Below, piece after piece: positions 25,998 to 34,268 of a DNA stretch of 38,108 nt. Positions within the stretch are counted from its first letter, which is position 1. Each line of letters starts with the position of its first letter. Below the pieces are notes generated by a model. That model was not told the origin of the DNA. It made no database searches and saw only the letters and a program-made list of their open reading frames with translations. This DNA is from Bacteroidota bacterium (GTDB lineage Bacteria; Bacteroidota; Ignavibacteria; Ignavibacteriales; Ignavibacteriaceae), in the NCBI GenBank assembly GCA_022562275.1, contig JADFPP010000027.1:1-38108 (forward strand), written 5' to 3'. Both the position numbers and the translations under genes were made by a program.

Positions 25998-26789
25998 TTA
26001 ATTAACCAAACCACTTTTCAAATTACGAACCAAATCTAATGTTTTTTGATATTTGCTGTTATCATTCATTAGTGATTTAATAACAGCGCTGCCCACTATT
26101 ACGCCATCACAATGCGGCTTATAATATTTTACATCTTCAACAGATGATATTCCAAAACCAACAAGAACTTTATTGTTTGTACATTGTTTATAAGCATTTT
26201 TTATGAAGAGGAGATCATCTGTGCTTGCTGTTTTTCGGGCGCCTGTAATGCCTGTGATACTGACACAGTAAACAAATCCTGAACTTTTTTCATCGATCAG
26301 TTTTATTCTTTCAGTCGGCGTTGTAGGAGTGATTAAAAGAATAATATCTGTCCCCTTAAATTTGGAAGTGAAGAAATTATCGTATTCATCCAATGGAACA
26401 TCGGGGACAATCAATCCATTTAATCCAATAGTTCCGGCTTCATCGGCAAACCTCTCTATACCGTAGCTTAACAGGGGATTAGCATATCCCATCAGGATTA
26501 TGGGTTTGTTTGTATGCTCTCTAATCTCTTTTGCATAATTCAATGTTGCACTTAGATCAATTCCGCTGCTTAATGCTTTTTGAGATGAAAGTTGAATTAT
26601 TGGTCCGTCAGCAATGGGATCGCTGAAGGGAAAACCGATCTCAAGAATATCGGCGCCTGCATCCAATACATTTAATGCAAGTTCTGTGAAACTATTTTTG
26701 CGTGGAAAACCAGCGGTTAAAAACACCGAAAGAATTTTTTCGTTATTATTATTTTTATCTTCTATATATTTAGAAATTTCCGATCTCAA
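25998..26789 (-). CDS. trpA: Tryptophan synthase alpha subunit
   Basis: 263 residues, the last gene of the operon. It cleaves indole-3-glycerol phosphate to indole and glyceraldehyde 3-phosphate. The TIM barrel has the catalytic Glu in [18 protein letters not shown] and Asp in [13 protein letters not shown], with phosphate-binding VGFGISS and GVIVGSAVI. The start is TTG 26789 (reading [10 protein letters not shown]), overlapping the trpB stop as TTGA, so translation is coupled to trpB, its partner in the alpha2beta2 complex. Confidence 0.97.
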
Positions 26790-27994
26790 ATTTTATCCTC
26801 ATACGAATTCATTATAGTTGAAAGATCTTTATCACCTCTTCCGCTTATATTTATAATAATAATTTCATCTTTATTAGTATCAGGCAATAATTTTTCCAGG
26901 TATGCCACCGCGTGAGCAGTTTCTAATGCCGGTATTATACCTTCCTTTTGTGAAAGAAGTTTTACTGCATTCAAAGCATCCTCATCTGTAGCAGAATTAT
27001 ATTCAACAAAAGAATTTTCTTTTAAATAAGTGTGTTCCGGACCAACACCCGGGTAATCGAGCCCCGCAGAAATTGAATGTACTTCCGAGATCTGCCCATC
27101 CTCCGTTTGAAGAAGACATGTTTTCATCCCATGAAAAATTCCTTCTCTGCCAAGAGTTAAAGTTGCACAATGTTTGTTTGAATCCAATCCGTATCCAGCC
27201 GCTTCCACACCAATTAGTTTAACCTTACTATTAATGAAAGGATAAAATATTCCTATTGCATTGCTTCCACCACCGACGCACGCAATAATATAGTCAGGGT
27301 CCCTGTCTTCTCTTTCAAAAATTTGTTGTTTGGTTTCCTTTCCAATTATAGATTGAAAGTCTCTTACCATCATTGGATAGGGGTGAGGTCCTACAACAGA
27401 GCCGATTATGTAATAAGTATTCTTTACGTTTGTCACCCAATCTCTGATCGCATCATTTGTTGCATCTTTTAATGTTTTACTTCCCGAAGCAACAGGAATT
27501 ACTTTTGCACCCAGTAATTGCATTCTGAAGACATTTGGCTTTTGCCTTTGCATATCAACTTCACCCATGTAAATCACGCATTCCAATCCAAATTTGGCAC
27601 ATACTGTTGCAGTTGCAACCCCATGCTGCCCGGCACCTGTTTCGGCAATTATTCTTGATTTTCCTAATTTTTTTGCCAGCAGAATTTGACCGAGAGTATT
27701 GTTGATCTTATGTGCACCGGTGTGGCAAAGGTCTTCACGTTTGAGATATATTTTTGCTTTGCCGTAGTGAGAAGATAATGCACTTGCAAAAGTTAGAGGA
27801 GTGGGTCTTCCGGAATATTCTTTATGAAGCTGCAGCAATTCTTCGTTGAATTCCTTGTTGTGCTTTAGAGACAAGTAAGTGGCTTCGAGTTCCGCTAACG
27901 GAGCTATCAATGTTTCGGGAACAAATTTTCCACCGTACTTACCGAATTTCCCTTTATTATCGGGGAGTTTATTTGTCAACATGGAGCTCTGCAT
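26786..27994 (-). CDS. trpB: Tryptophan synthase beta subunit
   Basis: 402 residues from ATG 27994 (a second ATG at 27982 is possible). A PLP enzyme condensing indole with serine. The PLP lysine is Lys96 in [16 protein letters not shown]; the phosphate-binding loop is [17 protein letters not shown] and [12 protein letters not shown] are intact. It belongs to the TrpB1 type, as shown by [12 protein letters not shown] and by the adjacent trpA. The 5' end overlaps the end of the DAHP synthase gene by 26 bases (14 from the second ATG). Confidence 0.97.
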
Positions 27995-29009
27995 AGTTCA
28001 TCCTTTTATTTACTACAGATGCAATTTTTTCAATGTTTTCTAACAATGATTTGAAATTTTTAATTGTTAAGGACTGATACCCGTCTGAAAGAGCTTTCTC
28101 AGGGTGTGAATGTACTTCGATCATTAATCCGTGTGCGCCGCATGCCACTGCAGCCATTGCCATAGGAGTTACCTTGTCCCATATCCCAACGCCATGTGAA
28201 GGGTCTACAATTATAGGAAGATGAGAATGCTTTTTTATTACAGGGACAATATTTAAATCAAGAGTGTTTCGTGTATGGGTCTCAAATGTTCTTATGCCTC
28301 GTTCACAGAGAATAACATTATAGTTGCCTTGAGATAATATATATTCGGCGCTCATTAAAAGGTCTTCCATTTTCGCGGCAAGGCCTCTTTTTAAAAGAAT
28401 AGGATTTTTAATTTTACCCACTTCTTCAAGAAGTGAAAAGTTCTGCATGTTTCTCGCACCAATTTGTACGATGTCGGCAACTTCAGCAATAAGAGGTAAG
28501 GTTTGGGTATCTTTTGCTTCGGTAACTATTTTCATTCCGAATTCCTTTTTTACCTCAGCCAGATATTCGACACCTTTTTCTTTTAATCCCTGGAAGGAAT
28601 AAGGACTTGATCGAGGCTTATAAGCACCAGCACGTAAGAATTTTATTCCCAATTCGTTTAAAGCTCCGGCAATTTCAAATATTTGATCTTTACTTTCAAC
28701 AGAACAAGGGCCGGCAATAATTGTAAGTTCATCACCGCCTATCGAAGCATTTCCAAAATCTATTACCGTATCCTCAGGTTTCATTTCCCTGCCAACCAGC
28801 TTATATGGTTTTGAAATCCGAATTACTTCATCGACAGAATCCATTCCTAAAAACTCTTCAATGGTAAGATTACCCGATGGTCCTGTTATACCAATTGCCA
28901 GCTTAAGTGAACCGGGAATTTCGTGTGGAGTACACTGCTTGGAAACGATCTTCTCTTTTACCTTTTCAACGTCTTTCCTCGGTGCATTTAATCCCATTAA
29001 AATTAGCAT
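27969..29009 (-). CDS. aroF: 3-deoxy-7-phosphoheptulonate (DAHP) synthase, type I-beta with ferredoxin-like N-domain
   Basis: 346 residues from ATG 29009, with AAGGAGAT just upstream. It commits erythrose 4-phosphate and phosphoenolpyruvate to the shikimate pathway. Residues 1-75 form the ferredoxin-like regulatory domain seen in Thermotoga-type enzymes ([20 protein letters not shown]). The barrel follows with [61 protein letters not shown] and [14 protein letters not shown], all family signatures. It lies inside the trp operon between trpF (2 bases) and trpB (overlap), so precursor supply is under tryptophan control; feedback by tryptophan or tyrosine through the N-domain is possible. Confidence 0.93.
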
Positions 29010-29011
29010 TG

Positions 29012-29623
29012 CTATCTCCTTAATTGATTTACTTTGTTAAAAAACTTTTCCATCTTATTTTTATCTTTCTTACCTGGCGTTATTTCCAGCGAAGAAGAAA
29101 GATCAACCGCTGCCGGATTTATATTTTTATAAATGAATTCAATATTCTCCAACGATACTCCTCCGGCAAGAATAATATTATTTCTAATTTTAGCGGGAAT
29201 TTTTTCCCAATCAAACTGCTTCCCGGTTCCTCCATAACTTTTTTCTGAATAAGTATCGAGTAATATTGAACATCCGTTATATTGGTCAATCATTTTGTAA
29301 TCAAAATTTTCATCAACCCGGAAAACTTTTATTACGGGAAGTGAAATACTATTTATGATATCCTGCTTTTCATTACCATGAAGCTGTACAACATTAATCC
29401 CTGCTAGTTTTGATTTTGTATTAATTATCTCCGAAGATTCATTAACAAAAACACCAACCTTTATTGTGAAAGGGGAAAGAACATTCGTAATATCCCGTAT
29501 AGTTTCAGGCGCAACATATCGTTTGCCTTTTTCATAAAAGATGAAACCTATTGCATCCGCACCAAGAGATTCTGCTGCCAGGGCATCCTCTATATTTGTG
29601 ATACCACAGATTTTAATTTTCAC
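29012..29623 (-). CDS. trpF: Phosphoribosylanthranilate isomerase
   Basis: 203 residues. It isomerises phosphoribosylanthranilate to CdRP. The N-terminal KIKICGITNIEDA carries the catalytic cysteine; DAIGFIFYEKGKRYV is the family segment after it; LLDTYSEKSYGGTGKQFDW carries the catalytic Asp and phosphate-binding GGTG; ILAGGVSLENIE and AAVDLSSSLEITPGKKD complete the barrel. It starts inside the end of trpC with an 11-base overlap and ends 2 bases before the DAHP synthase ATG. Confidence 0.97.
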   Translation of the reverse strand: MKIKICGITNIEDALAAESLGADAIGFIFYEKGKRYVAPETIRDITNVLSPFTIKVGVFVNESSEIINTKSKLAGINVVQLHGNEKQDIINSISLPVIKVFRVDENFDYKMIDQYNGCSILLDTYSEKSYGGTGKQFDWEKIPAKIRNNIILAGGVSLENIEFIYKNINPAAVDLSSSLEITPGKKDKNKMEKFFNKVNQLRR

Positions 29624-30410
29624 TTTGGCACCACTCTTTTAATTGCATTAAGGCAGCTTCAATATTATCACTCGTCATTAAATATTCTCCAATGAGAATT
29701 GCATTGACATTATTTTTTTTAAGTTGATAAATGTCTTCCTTATCCTTTATACCGGATTCGGAAACAACTTTTACATCATCAGGCAGTTTTTTAGAAATAT
29801 TAATAGTTGTATTTAAATCAACTGAAAAATCGTTTAAGTTTCTATTGTTTATGCCAATCAGTCTGTTAAGATGAAAATCAATTTTATTCAATTGTTCTTC
29901 CGAATGAAGTTCAAGCAGCACTTCCAAACCGATTTCATAAGCGGCTTGTGTTAATTCAGCTATCTGGTTTTTTGAAAGGATTTCACTTATTAACAAAATT
30001 AAGTCTGCACCAAATGCTTTTGATTCAAAAATTTGATATTCATCAATTATAAAATCCTTCCTTAGCAGGGGAATATTTTTAAATCTGGCAATATCGCGTA
30101 GATATTCAATCTTACCCTTAAAAAAGTTAACATCCGTTAATACGGAAACTGCATCTGCACCATGTTGAAAATATGTTTCGGCGATTGCAATGTGATCAAA
30201 ATCCTCCCTGATCATTCCTTTAGATGGACTTTCTTTTTTTATCTCAGCAATAATTGAAACTATGTTATTTTTATTTAACTTCTCTGTAAAACGTGGGAGC
30301 CAGGACTCAAAAAACTCCATCTCAGTAAATGATGAAAGGGTATAATATTTTTTTAAATCAGAGACTTCTTTCTTCTTTACTTCTAATATTTCATCTAAAA
30401 TATTCATCAT
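29613..30410 (-). CDS. trpC: Indole-3-glycerol phosphate synthase
   Basis: 265 residues (two adjacent ATGs at 30410 and 30407). It forms the indole ring from CdRP. Landmarks are the helical N-terminus ILDEILEVKKKEV, the catalytic lysine region IIAEIKKESPSKGMIREDFD, LLRKDFIIDEYQIFES with the second catalytic lysine, LIGINNRNLNDFSVDL, and VVSESGIKDKEDI with LIGEYLMTS for phosphate binding. It is a monofunctional enzyme, unlike the E. coli TrpC-TrpF fusion. trpD ends 15 bases before. Confidence 0.97.
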   Translation of the reverse strand: MMNILDEILEVKKKEVSDLKKYYTLSSFTEMEFFESWLPRFTEKLNKNNIVSIIAEIKKESPSKGMIREDFDHIAIAETYFQHGADAVSVLTDVNFFKGKIEYLRDIARFKNIPLLRKDFIIDEYQIFESKAFGADLILLISEILSKNQIAELTQAAYEIGLEVLLELHSEEQLNKIDFHLNRLIGINNRNLNDFSVDLNTTINISKKLPDDVKVVSESGIKDKEDIYQLKKNNVNAILIGEYLMTSDNIEAALMQLKEWCQSEN

Positions 30411-30425
30411 TTTATCTTCATCTAT

Positions 30426-31430
30426 TTAGAATTCAATCAGCCTGTTTAATTTATCGTAAGCAGCCCCGTCCAAAATGGATTTTTCCGCAGCGTTTTTGCA
30501 ATCTAAAAGATTATCTGAAACACCTGCTGTGTAAAGAGCTGCTGCAGCATTAGCACATACAGTATAAAATATTCCGTTTTGTTTTTTATTCCTAAATAAT
30601 TCCGAAATTATTTGAGCATTGTCTTTAGCATCACCACCTTGAATTTCATTTACACTAACTTCGGGGTAACCAAAAGTTTCAGCACTTATTTCCGATTCAT
30701 TTAAACCATCTTTGTTGTATTCAATCATCTTTGTTTTTTGATCGAGTATGATTTCATCATATTTATTCCCAGCACATAAAAAGCAAACTTTTTCAAAATC
30801 GAGGTATTGTGCGGCTTGTGAATATAACTCGGAAGCGTTGTTATTATAAGTTCCTATGATTTGCTTTTTAACACCAGCAGGATTGGTTAAAGGTCCCAGC
30901 AGGTTAAAGATAGTTTTCGTACCAAGCTCCTTTCTAACCTGTGCAGCGTATTTCATTGCAGGATGATACTGTGGTGCAAATAAAAATGTGATACCGATTT
31001 TATTTAGAGCTTCAATAGATTTCTCTGCGGTGAGATTAATATTTACACCAAGTTCGGAAAGAACATCAGCACTTCCGCAGTTGCTTGATATTGATCTGTT
31101 GCCGTGCTTTGCCACTTTTACGCCGGCACCCGCAGCAACAAAAGCTGCTGCGGTGGAAATGTTGAAAGTGCCGGAATTATCACCGCCTGTGCCGCATACA
31201 TCAATTACGTTGTCATCAGGATAATTAAGTTTAATTCCTCTCTCTCGCATGGCTATTGTAAACCCTGCAACCTCTTCTGCTGATTCTCCCTTTACTTTTA
31301 GAGCTATTAATAATCCTGCTAACAAAGAATGATTTACATTTCCCTTCATTATTTCATTCATCACTTGCCTGGCTTCTTCCAAACTTAAGCCGGTGCCCGT
31401 TACTAATTTATCCAACATATTTTTTATCAT
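30426..31430 (-). CDS. trpD: Anthranilate phosphoribosyltransferase
   Basis: 334 residues when started at ATG 31430, which overlaps the trpG stop as ATGA; an ATG four codons earlier would give 338. It transfers phosphoribose from PRPP to anthranilate. Motifs: DVCGTGGDNSGTFNIST (PRPP loop), AKHGNRSISSNCGSADVLSE, PAMKYAAQVRKELGTKTIFN with the anthranilate-binding arginine, LLGPLTNPAG, and the metal-binding acidic pair near NKYDEI. It is unfused from TrpG, unlike the E. coli arrangement. Confidence 0.97.
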   Translation of the reverse strand: MIKNMLDKLVTGTGLSLEEARQVMNEIMKGNVNHSLLAGLLIALKVKGESAEEVAGFTIAMRERGIKLNYPDDNVIDVCGTGGDNSGTFNISTAAAFVAAGAGVKVAKHGNRSISSNCGSADVLSELGVNINLTAEKSIEALNKIGITFLFAPQYHPAMKYAAQVRKELGTKTIFNLLGPLTNPAGVKKQIIGTYNNNASELYSQAAQYLDFEKVCFLCAGNKYDEIILDQKTKMIEYNKDGLNESEISAETFGYPEVSVNEIQGGDAKDNAQIISELFRNKKQNGIFYTVCANAAAALYTAGVSDNLLDCKNAAEKSILDGAAYDKLNRLIEF

Positions 31431-31993
31431 AATCGAATCCAATTATTAATAATTTTATTACCTACTTTAGTTAATATCGATTCGGGATGAAACTGAATAC
31501 CTTCAACTGGGTATTCTTTATGCCGAACTCCCATTATTATATCATCATCTGTGCGTGCGCTTATCTCCAGTGCTTCCGGTAAAGAGGAGTTTTCTATAAT
31601 TAGTGAGTGATAACGCGTAGCGCTGAAATTTTGCGGGATATTTTGGAAGATAGTTTTAGCATCGTGGTTCATCAATGATGTTTTCCCGTGCATAATTCGG
31701 GGAGCTTTTATTACATTTCCACCATATGCAATGCCGATTGCCTGATGTCCCAAACACACTCCAAGAATGGGGATCTTACCGCCGAATTCTTTTATACAAT
31801 CTAAAGAAACATTAGAATCTTCTGCTTTACCGGGTCCCGGCGAGATAAGTATTTTATCAGGATTTAATTCACTAATTTCTTTAATTGTTATTTCATCATT
31901 TCGTTTAACAATGATTGATTCCACCTCGTTTCCTAACAACTGAACCAGATTGTAGGTGAAAGAATCATAATTATCAATTACTAAAATCTTCAT
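31427..31993 (-). CDS. trpG: Anthranilate synthase glutamine amidotransferase subunit
   Basis: 188 residues from ATG 31993 (MKILVIDNYDSFTYNLVQLL, the canonical start); a longer reading from 32008 only adds residues inside trpE. Class I amidotransferase triad: Cys80 in GVCLGHQAIG, and the His-Glu pair in GIQFHPESILT. It supplies ammonia to TrpE. PGPGKAEDSN and RYHSLI are further family signatures; the same subunit may also serve p-aminobenzoate synthesis in genomes with one copy. It overlaps trpE by 20 bases and trpD by 4. Confidence 0.96.
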   Translation of the reverse strand: MKILVIDNYDSFTYNLVQLLGNEVESIIVKRNDEITIKEISELNPDKILISPGPGKAEDSNVSLDCIKEFGGKIPILGVCLGHQAIGIAYGGNVIKAPRIMHGKTSLMNHDAKTIFQNIPQNFSATRYHSLIIENSSLPEALEISARTDDDIIMGVRHKEYPVEGIQFHPESILTKVGNKIINNWIRL

Positions 31994-33449
31994 CCAATGC
32001 CTCTGCAAATTTTAATGCTTTAACTAACGCTGCCGATTTATTTTTTATCTCTTTTGCTTCTAATTTTGGTATACTATCTGCAACAATGCCGGCACCTGCC
32101 TGCCAGGAAATTACTTTATCTTTTGCAAACATAGTTCTAATGGCAATACATAAATCCAGGTTACCTGAAAAATCAAAATAACCAACTGCACCGGCGTACA
32201 CATTTCTGGCGGAGTTTTCATATTTTCTTATTAGCTGCATTGCCCGGATTTTGGGCGCACCGGTTACAGTTCCGGCGGGAAAGCATGATTTAAGTGCATC
32301 AATTGAGTCCTTATCATCAGACAATTCTCCTTCAACTTTAGATACAATATGCATAACGTGTGAATAACGTTGAACTTTCATATAGTCCGTTACTTTTACG
32401 CTTCCGTATTTACAAACTCTTCCCAGGTCGTTTCTTCCAAGATCGACCAGCATTGTGTGTTCTGCTAATTCTTTTGCATCGTTCATTAAGTTTTTCTCCA
32501 AAGCAAGATCCTCGTCATTTGTTTCCCCGCGTTTTCTTGTTCCTGCAATTGGTAATAATTGTGCAACACCGTTCTTAACTTTTAATAGGTCTTCGGGCGA
32601 AGTTCCTATAATTGAAAAATCATTTTCATACTCAAGAAAGTACATATAAGGTGATGGATTAATAATTCTTAAAGCTCTGTAAACGTTTAAAAGATCACCC
32701 GAAAATTTTGCTGAAAACCTTTTTGAAATCACAATTTGAAAAATATCTCCCTCATAAATATGTTTTTTACTTGAATCAACATGCTCATAAAACTCTTGCG
32801 GATCAAAATCATTCTGCAGCTCATCGGTAAGTTTAAAATCCGATGAATATATTAATGGCTTTCGCAATTCATTTTTAAGAGCGGATAATTTCTTTTTTGC
32901 TGCCTTATATTCCTCTCTTAGGTTTGTCTCCTTATCAATTTTAACATTCGTAATAAGTATTATCTGATGCTTGAAGTGATCGAATGCGAGAACGGTATCG
33001 TAAAAACCAAAAATTGAATCCGGCTGATCTGTGAGATAAATATCATCTTTCAAAACATTCTCAATCAACGCAATATTCTCATAACCTAAATATCCAACTA
33101 AACCGCCGGTAAAGTCCGGGAGAATATCTAATTTTGGGTGATTGTATTTATTTATTTCTTTCCTGATAAATTCAAATACGTTTTCATTTCTCTCCGTTTC
33201 TTTTATACTGTTTCTGATCTTTATAATTCCTCCTTTGTTACTGAAAACAAAAGCCGGGTCCTTACCAATAAATGAATACCTTGATAAATTTTCTGCACCT
33301 TCAACGGATTCTAAAAGAAAATTGCATTTCTCCTTTTCTCTTATTTTCAGATATGCAGTAACCGGAGTGAGCATATCTGCCGTCATGAATTCATAAACAG
33401 GAATTAAGTTATACTCACGTGCTAACGATTTAAATGTGTCGTAATCCAT
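31974..33449 (-). CDS. trpE: Anthranilate synthase component I
   Basis: 491 residues from ATG 33449, with AGGATG upstream. It converts chorismate to anthranilate with TrpG. The feedback site LLES is present in CNFLLESVEGAENLSRYSF, indicating inhibition by tryptophan, and GLVGYLGYE lies in the N-domain. The chorismate-binding half has QIVISKRFSA, SPYMYFLEYENDFSIIGTSPE, LPIAGTRKRG, MLVDLGRNDLGRV, SHVMHIVSKVEG and CFPAGTVTGAPKIRAM. It is the first structural gene of the operon, 18 bases after the leader terminator. Confidence 0.97.
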   Translation of the reverse strand: MDYDTFKSLAREYNLIPVYEFMTADMLTPVTAYLKIREKEKCNFLLESVEGAENLSRYSFIGKDPAFVFSNKGGIIKIRNSIKETERNENVFEFIRKEINKYNHPKLDILPDFTGGLVGYLGYENIALIENVLKDDIYLTDQPDSIFGFYDTVLAFDHFKHQIILITNVKIDKETNLREEYKAAKKKLSALKNELRKPLIYSSDFKLTDELQNDFDPQEFYEHVDSSKKHIYEGDIFQIVISKRFSAKFSGDLLNVYRALRIINPSPYMYFLEYENDFSIIGTSPEDLLKVKNGVAQLLPIAGTRKRGETNDEDLALEKNLMNDAKELAEHTMLVDLGRNDLGRVCKYGSVKVTDYMKVQRYSHVMHIVSKVEGELSDDKDSIDALKSCFPAGTVTGAPKIRAMQLIRKYENSARNVYAGAVGYFDFSGNLDLCIAIRTMFAKDKVISWQAGAGIVADSIPKLEAKEIKNKSAALVKALKFAEALDEDFSN

Positions 33450-33467
33450 TCACATCCTATTGATAAT

Positions 33468-33500
33468 AAAAAAACCCTTCCCAGTGTACTGAGAAGGGTT
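33468..33500 (-). terminator. trp attenuator terminator
   Basis: On the minus strand AACCCTTCTCAG (33500-33489) pairs over 12 positions, one a U-G wobble, with CTGGGAAGGGTT (33484-33473) around a TACA loop, followed by 7 Ts (33474-33468). It lies between the leader peptide stop and trpE, so transcripts ending here would not include the operon. Confidence 0.9.
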
Positions 33501-33524
33501 TAAAATTACATACTTAACTCAGAA

Positions 33525-33620
33525 TCACCAAGACATATTAATATTCAATATTCTCCACCACCAGCCATTTAAAATAACTGATAAAAATGAATAATAATAT
33601 GTTTCGGTATTCCTTTTCAT
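33525..33620 (-). CDS. trpL: trp operon leader peptide (31 residues, WWW)
   Basis: A small frame from ATG 33620 to TGA 33525. Three Trp codons in a row are at codons 20-22 (33563-33555), and a fourth is the last codon (31, 33530-33528) before the stop; the peptide reads MKRNTETYYYS at the start and GWWWRIL in the middle. It ends 24 bases before the terminator hairpin. In the known mechanism, a ribosome stalled at Trp codons when charged tRNA-Trp is short lets an antiterminator form. A Tyr triplet (codons 8-10) precedes the Trp run. The start context is weak in ribosome-binding sequence, and the predicted transcript start is only a few bases upstream, so initiation may be nearly leaderless. 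Confidence 0.85.
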   Translation of the reverse strand: MKRNTETYYYSFLSVILNGWWWRILNINMSW

Positions 33621-33773: not shown

Positions 33774-34268
33774 ATGAAAAAACTTTTTCTCATATTTATT
33801 ATAATTATAACAACTTCCTTATTTGCACAATATCGCGATGATGGACTTAATAAACCGGGCGTAAAAGAAGGGATTGTGGACCAGTCTTCAGGATATGCAT
33901 TTGGATTTTTGAACTCTGAAAATTTCCTGATGAGACATTCGTTTTCTCTTTCGTTTACTTCTTTCGGTGGAAATGGAATATCATTGGGTACATATACAAA
34001 TAGTATGTACTATAAATTGATGAATAATCTAAACGTTCAGATGGATATCAGTATGATCTTTTCTCCTTATAGTTCATTTGGTAAGAGTTTCCAGGATGAT
34101 ATAAACGGAATTTATATTAGCAGTGCCGCTGTAAATTACGCACCATTTAAGGATATGAATATTTCAATTCAATACCGAAGCTTGCCGTATGGCAGCTATT
34201 ACTCAAATCCTTTTTATGGATCATTCTATGGTTTCTACAATAATCCTTTCAGGGAGTATGATCATTAA
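33774..34268 (+). CDS. Exported protein of unknown function
   Basis: 164 residues. A clear signal peptide (MKKLFLIFIIIITTSLFAQ, cleavage after SLFA). The mature part shows amphipathic strands (HSFSLSFTSFGG, LNVQMDISMIF, AVNYAPFKDMNISIQYR) and ends in an aromatic, glycine-rich tail (YGSFYGFYNNPF). It may be a small outer-membrane or periplasmic beta protein. I do not recognise a family. It has its own promoter divergent from the trp operon, and is followed 59 bases later by the LytR_C protein, with which it may be co-transcribed. Confidence 0.6.
   Translation: MKKLFLIFIIIITTSLFAQYRDDGLNKPGVKEGIVDQSSGYAFGFLNSENFLMRHSFSLSFTSFGGNGISLGTYTNSMYYKLMNNLNVQMDISMIFSPYSSFGKSFQDDINGIYISSAAVNYAPFKDMNISIQYRSLPYGSYYSNPFYGSFYGFYNNPFREYDH

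Follow-up and report, generated by a model that had tools for sequence, protein, structure and literature searches.

A probable ribosome-mediated trp operon attenuator with a reversed antiterminator in Ignavibacteriales

The closest described system is the trpL leader of E. coli (Yanofsky), with which the locus studied here shares a leader peptide with tandem Trp codons, an intrinsic terminator before trpE and a four-segment logic in which a 1:2 hairpin masks the antiterminator, the antiterminator competes with the terminator, and the position of the ribosome is the input. In Bacteroidota, trp leaders with Trp codons are described by the Bacteroid-trp family RF01692 (Weinberg et al. 2010, PMC2864571). 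For Flavobacterium psychrophilum there is a note on trp attenuation (PMC6414381) and a transcriptome with clues to leader-peptide attenuation (PMC9723704); trp attenuation in Bacteroidetes was already suspected. In Actinobacteria, amino-acid attenuators with ribosome-mediated leader peptides control biosynthetic operons (PMC1262725). We found in the open literature no paper on attenuation in Ignavibacteria and no description of an antiterminator directed at the terminator's loop and 3′ arm; earlier accounts for Bacteroidetes may exist in subscription papers. The window, that is the whole 38,108-nt stretch of DNA analysed, carries upstream of trpE what we read as a ribosome-mediated attenuator of the trp operon, with Yanofsky's logic and a reversed antiterminator; we put the probability of this reading at roughly 0.8. 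Our verdict is a regulator ordinary by purpose and new by wiring. It differs from E. coli trpL as follows: the main target of the antiterminator would be the loop and 3′ arm, with the 5′ arm serving a short inner half; the antiterminator element takes in the leader stop codon; and the predicted promoter, of the Bacteroidota type, leaves hardly any 5′ UTR.

The controlled operon lies on the minus strand, as does its leader. Its first gene is trpE (31974-33449; anthranilate synthase component I, PF04715 and PF00425), and trpG, trpD, trpC, trpF, a DAHP synthase gene, trpB and trpA make up the remainder (25998-32008), assigned by Pfam matches and tight spacing. The DAHP synthase (PF00793 with the ferredoxin-like domain PF18152) is encoded at 27972-29009, flanked by trpF and trpB, and through it the attenuator would reach the shikimate pathway at its first step. 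Near the operon there is an ORF with a LytR_C domain (PF13399; 34328-34801, plus strand), adjoined by an ORF at 33774-34268 with no Pfam match. Upstream of trpE, a leader frame of 31 codons (MKRNTETYYYSFLSVILNGWWWRILNINMSW*, 33620-33525) contains three tandem Trp codons, W20-22 (33563-33555), the putative sensing (stalling) site; W31 is its last codon, directly 5′ of the stop. The 12-bp terminator hairpin follows 24 nt past the frame (AACCCTTCTCAG, 33500-33489; loop TACA; CTGGGAAGGGTT, 33484-33473), and its 7-T run (33474-33468) ends 18 nt before the trpE ATG (33449); in the RNA, the 3′ arm CUGGGAAGGGUU with the 7-U run spans 33468-33484. The sequence-only reading had described this frame with WWW at codons 20-22, the hairpin, the T tail and every distance, and was correct to the base. 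The fold of the leader RNA is far more stable than those of shuffled sequences (MFE -50.6 kcal/mol, z -6.4). The predicted promoter is of the Bacteroidota type (TTG 33661-33659, 19 nt, TATATTTA 33639-33632) and places the predicted transcript start a few nucleotides 5′ of the leader ATG, in keeping with an earlier remark that the promoter reads differently here and leaves little 5′ UTR. Most relatives have TTGA, a spacer of about 19 nt and TAnnTTTG, with 6-12 nt between the end of the -7 element and the leader ATG; translation would therefore begin almost at the 5′ end of the transcript.

Relatives from the same genus, family and order were found by a TrpE search. All 41 genomes with trpE, the window's own included, have upstream of trpE a short frame with at least two Trp codons, followed by a hairpin and T-run; WW is present in 37 and WWW in 27. 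The hairpin was seen in none of the 41 without the Trp codons or the frame. TrpE matches that of a Melioribacteraceae MAG (L051) at 62%, which puts the genome in or near Ignavibacteriales; L051 has a WWW leader as well. It had been claimed that such an arrangement is not chance, and the counts agree: the Trp triplet TGGTGGTGG has one copy in the window, where shuffles predict 0.06, and the combination TGGTGGTGG-N45-70-CCCTTCTCAG has a single occurrence in the entire 3.4-Mb genome. The conservation in 41 of 41 genomes argues more strongly against chance. When the trpE upstream regions of relatives are aligned, the Trp codons are conserved and the antiterminator pairings covary. The idea of a Trp attenuator before trpE is thus strongly supported across the order, with leader, terminator, position and promoter all conserved and with alternative, ribosome-dependent structures predicted. 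The distance from terminator to trpE is usually 10-70 nt; at L009, a locus of the window's own family f1, it is 224 nt.

A motif search over the 62 nt before the terminator, blind to the terminator sequence, returned CYYRGTGA in nearly every relative, a motif that can pair with the terminator's upper 3′ arm and the loop bases just before it. The corresponding element A in the window (CUUGGUGA, 33525-33532) lies over the leader stop codon and would form the outer half of the antiterminator by pairing with 33486-33480 (D, CACUGGG), the last two loop bases and the upper 3′ arm, as covariation and folding indicate. In each species the leader stop codon falls somewhere from 17 nt upstream to 10 nt downstream of the point where A ends. 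Over 37 species, 243 of 296 A:D pairs are Watson-Crick, compared with 206.4 ± 4.4 after permutation (0/20000), where partners were dealt out among species and, as in all our covariation tests, relatedness was ignored. When the partner is slid by 1-3 nt, the pairs fall to 46-91. The exchanges are TA/CG/AT at position 2 of A, CG/TA/AT at position 3, AT/GC at position 4, GC/TA/AT at position 7 and AT/GC/TA at position 8; two-sided changes include CCAAGTGA:TCACTTGG, CCCGGTGA:TCACCGGG, CTTAGTGA:TTACTAAG and ATCAGTGT:ACACTGAG. A second element, B (CUGAG, 33518-33522), pairs with CUCAG (33493-33489) in the terminator 5′ arm, C (AACCCUUCUCAG, 33489-33500). This CTGAG:CTCAG pairing had been the only candidate antiterminator named before. 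It is real in that the B:C duplex energy beats the same kind of permutation, blind to relatedness (-3.95 vs -3.02 ± 0.19, 0/20000). At 5 bp in the window, B:C is weaker and less uniform than A:D, and the comparison indicates that it is the minor, nested half of a hairpin of which A:D is the main half. Since A:D encloses the 5′ arm, the terminator could not form beside it without a pseudoknot. The locus thus has the short Trp leader ORF and the intrinsic terminator before the first structural gene that are expected of an attenuator, and in A:D with B:C a predicted, covariation-supported antiterminator mutually exclusive with the terminator.

The alternative that survives best is a textbook attenuator, in which the 5′-arm pairing CTGAG:CTCAG alone is the antiterminator and A:D is a by-product of the resemblance between A and C, each being required to pair with region 1 or B. 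The window does contain B:C, which covaries; the sequences of A and C are alike, and covariation of C:D is forced by the terminator, so that part of the A:D signal could be passed on via C:D. The likeness of A to C could inflate A:D in this way, yet the loop bases argue against it: A:D takes in loop bases (UCA/GUGA, ACAC/GUGU, CCGC/GUGG, UUGC/GUAA) that are free of the constraint of the C:D stem. L008 has no match to B, but its A:D pairs 8/8, and B:C amounts to just 5 bp in the window. Over 39 species, complementarity of the leader to the 5′ arm and loop is no better than in shuffles (z -0.6), whereas that to the loop and 3′ arm reaches z -2.5. We consider the textbook arrangement unlikely for this locus. 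The reversed antiterminator bears out an earlier suspicion that the switch may differ from the textbook one.

The whole-leader MFE fold pairs region 1 (33595-33613), which encodes TxTYY, with region 2 (33521-33540), which contains element A; region 1 would thereby mask the antiterminator element. In family f1 (19 species) the 1:2 pairing covaries, with 208 of 304 pairs Watson-Crick compared with 172.7 ± 5.4 after permutation irrespective of relatedness (0/10000). At the same place in the sister families f2/f3 the covariation is absent (87 vs 90.2, relatedness again ignored). There, another upstream stretch often pairs with A in single-sequence folds, though none does in L030, L033 and L036. 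The evidence for a masking hairpin is thus the MFE fold of the window with covariation in f1, and folds only in f2/f3; sequence comparison establishes the predicted hairpin in f1, the window's family, alone. Comparison of relatives likewise establishes, as predicted RNA features, the leader, the terminator and the A:D and B:C pairings. The earlier reading missed both the 1:2 masking hairpin and the main half of the antiterminator. Its appeal to E. coli-type logic was apt: the Trp-codon leader, terminator, masking hairpin and competing antiterminator are all represented.

TxTYY near the leader N-terminus is conserved in f1, which would suit a TnaC-like arrest peptide, with the Trp run as part of it and the nascent chain sensing free tryptophan or another ligand. 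TYY is already accounted for by RNA pairing through region 1, and the motif is lost or moved in f2/f3, so the Trp run is the sole peptide feature common to the leaders of f1 and f2/f3; moreover, the genes under control are biosynthetic, not catabolic. We regard this alternative as very improbable. The position of W31 reads CAG, CGG or TGG before the stop in relatives, so the last codon is Q, R or W. The presence of a fourth Trp codon directly before the stop had been correctly noted; the sensing meaning attached to it does not stand, and W31 as a second stalling codon was rejected because the codon is not conserved among relatives. W31 is no sensing codon; it is there as a by-product of the element that pairs across the stop. 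That both TYY and the last codon lie inside RNA pairing stretches would be reason enough for their conservation. Least credible of all is an unregulated, constitutive upstream terminator whose neighbouring ORF is there by chance: all 41 genomes have both leader and terminator, the alternative structures covary and the fold z-score is -6.4.

The reversed attenuator would operate as follows. With no ribosome on the leader, region 1 would pair with region 2 and hide A, and the terminator would form. When charged tRNA-Trp is scarce, a ribosome stalled at W20-22 would open the 1:2 hairpin and free A and B; as the terminator is being made, B would pair with the upper 5′ arm, while A would take up the loop together with the upper 3′ arm; the resulting single long A-B/C-D hairpin would exclude the terminator, so that trpE is transcribed. 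When charged tRNA-Trp is ample, the ribosome would reach the stop codon within A and cover A and B, and the terminator would form. With its strand placed over the stop codon, the antiterminator would be blocked by the very ribosome that is released there. The dependence on ribosome position was modelled for 39 species by equilibrium folding of the RNA not covered by a ribosome, in transcripts reaching no farther than the upper half of the 3′ arm. For a ribosome stalled at the Trp codons, the mean pairing was 0.87 for A:D, 0.72 for B:C and 0.02 for C:D, with A:D above C:D in 38/39; for a ribosome at the stop, C:D was 0.57 and A:D 0.01, with A:D below C:D in 39/39. L019 departs from the ribosome-position model. 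Once the full terminator has emerged, it beats the antiterminator at equilibrium in 37/39 for either ribosome position, so in the model the choice must be kinetic, made while the 3′ arm emerges. We infer how the cell responds to Trp and in what order the steps occur.

The wiring was compared with that of other leaders. Six E. coli leaders (trp, thr, leu, his, phe and ilv) show the stronger pairing with the 5′ arm. Across Bacteroidota, grouped into families with labels assigned by the search tool, the loop and 3′ arm are clearly favoured only by Ignavibacteriales (39 members) and by f28 (18), which we take to be Flavobacteriaceae from its RF01692 matches. The 5′ arm is favoured by f30, f23, f20, f35, f32, f27 and most other Bacteroidota families, and the topology is ambiguous in a few families of one to four members (f25, f36, f40, f48, f14, f4 and f21). 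In f28 the stop-codon element CGTCGTGA is complementary to TCACGAC of the loop and 3′ arm (L069-L086), and this 7-bp GTCGTGA:TCACGAC match is conserved; its covariation is insignificant (123 vs 119.9 ± 2.3, relatedness ignored), so the Flavobacteriaceae parallel is suggestive only. On balance we lean slightly towards a reversed class of attenuator, in which a strand at the stop codon pairs first with the terminator loop and then onward along the 3′ arm, used with unrelated letters in trp leaders of Ignavibacteriales and Flavobacteriaceae, most other Bacteroidota being textbook. The trp leaders of f30 (L063-L068, L135-L145) have WWW(P) followed by GGCAGTGG, which is complementary to the terminator 5′ arm; their topology is textbook, and RF01692, the only Rfam family tested on them, does not cover them.

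The RF01692 covariance model gave no match above its gathering score (49 bits) in the Ignavibacteriales leaders and no match at all in the window's own genome. It ends at the terminator 5′ arm and holds neither the 3′ arm nor the CGTCGTGA:TCACGAC complementarity. An Rfam scan at gathering and relaxed thresholds returned for the leader only chance-level matches to terminator-bearing families; in the window there was no T-box match, and the only gathering-level match was tRNA. The attenuator would fill an annotation gap: Rfam lacks a family for this trp regulator, which spans the order, and RF01692 omits what looks like the decisive pairing. If the reading is right, a classical attenuation switch can run via the other side of the terminator, and the reversed wiring alters when and how the race between polymerase and ribosome is decided. 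The odd peptide conservation (TYY and a last codon Q, R or W) would then be RNA structure, a caution for readers of small ORFs.

A scan for leaders upstream of leuA in the relatives, where the flanks are short, found none. Near hisG, leaders with His codons (HHH to HHHHH) and terminators occur at L200, L212, L205, L207, L209 and L210, resembling the trp leader as ribosome-mediated leader peptides over biosynthetic operons of Ignavibacteriales relatives. In L200 and L212 the pairing, judged by eye, is with the 5′ arm and loop and is textbook-like, so the reversed form is no rule of the clade. A TrpE scan of the genome contigs gave only three loci, one of them informative on taxonomy. In a same-genus genome (G001, contig C1), trpE is in two pieces, at 891134-892030 (minus strand) and 936703-937308 (plus strand), about 45 kb apart and covering residues 1-299 and 289-490; this split reflects either a rearrangement or an assembly error.
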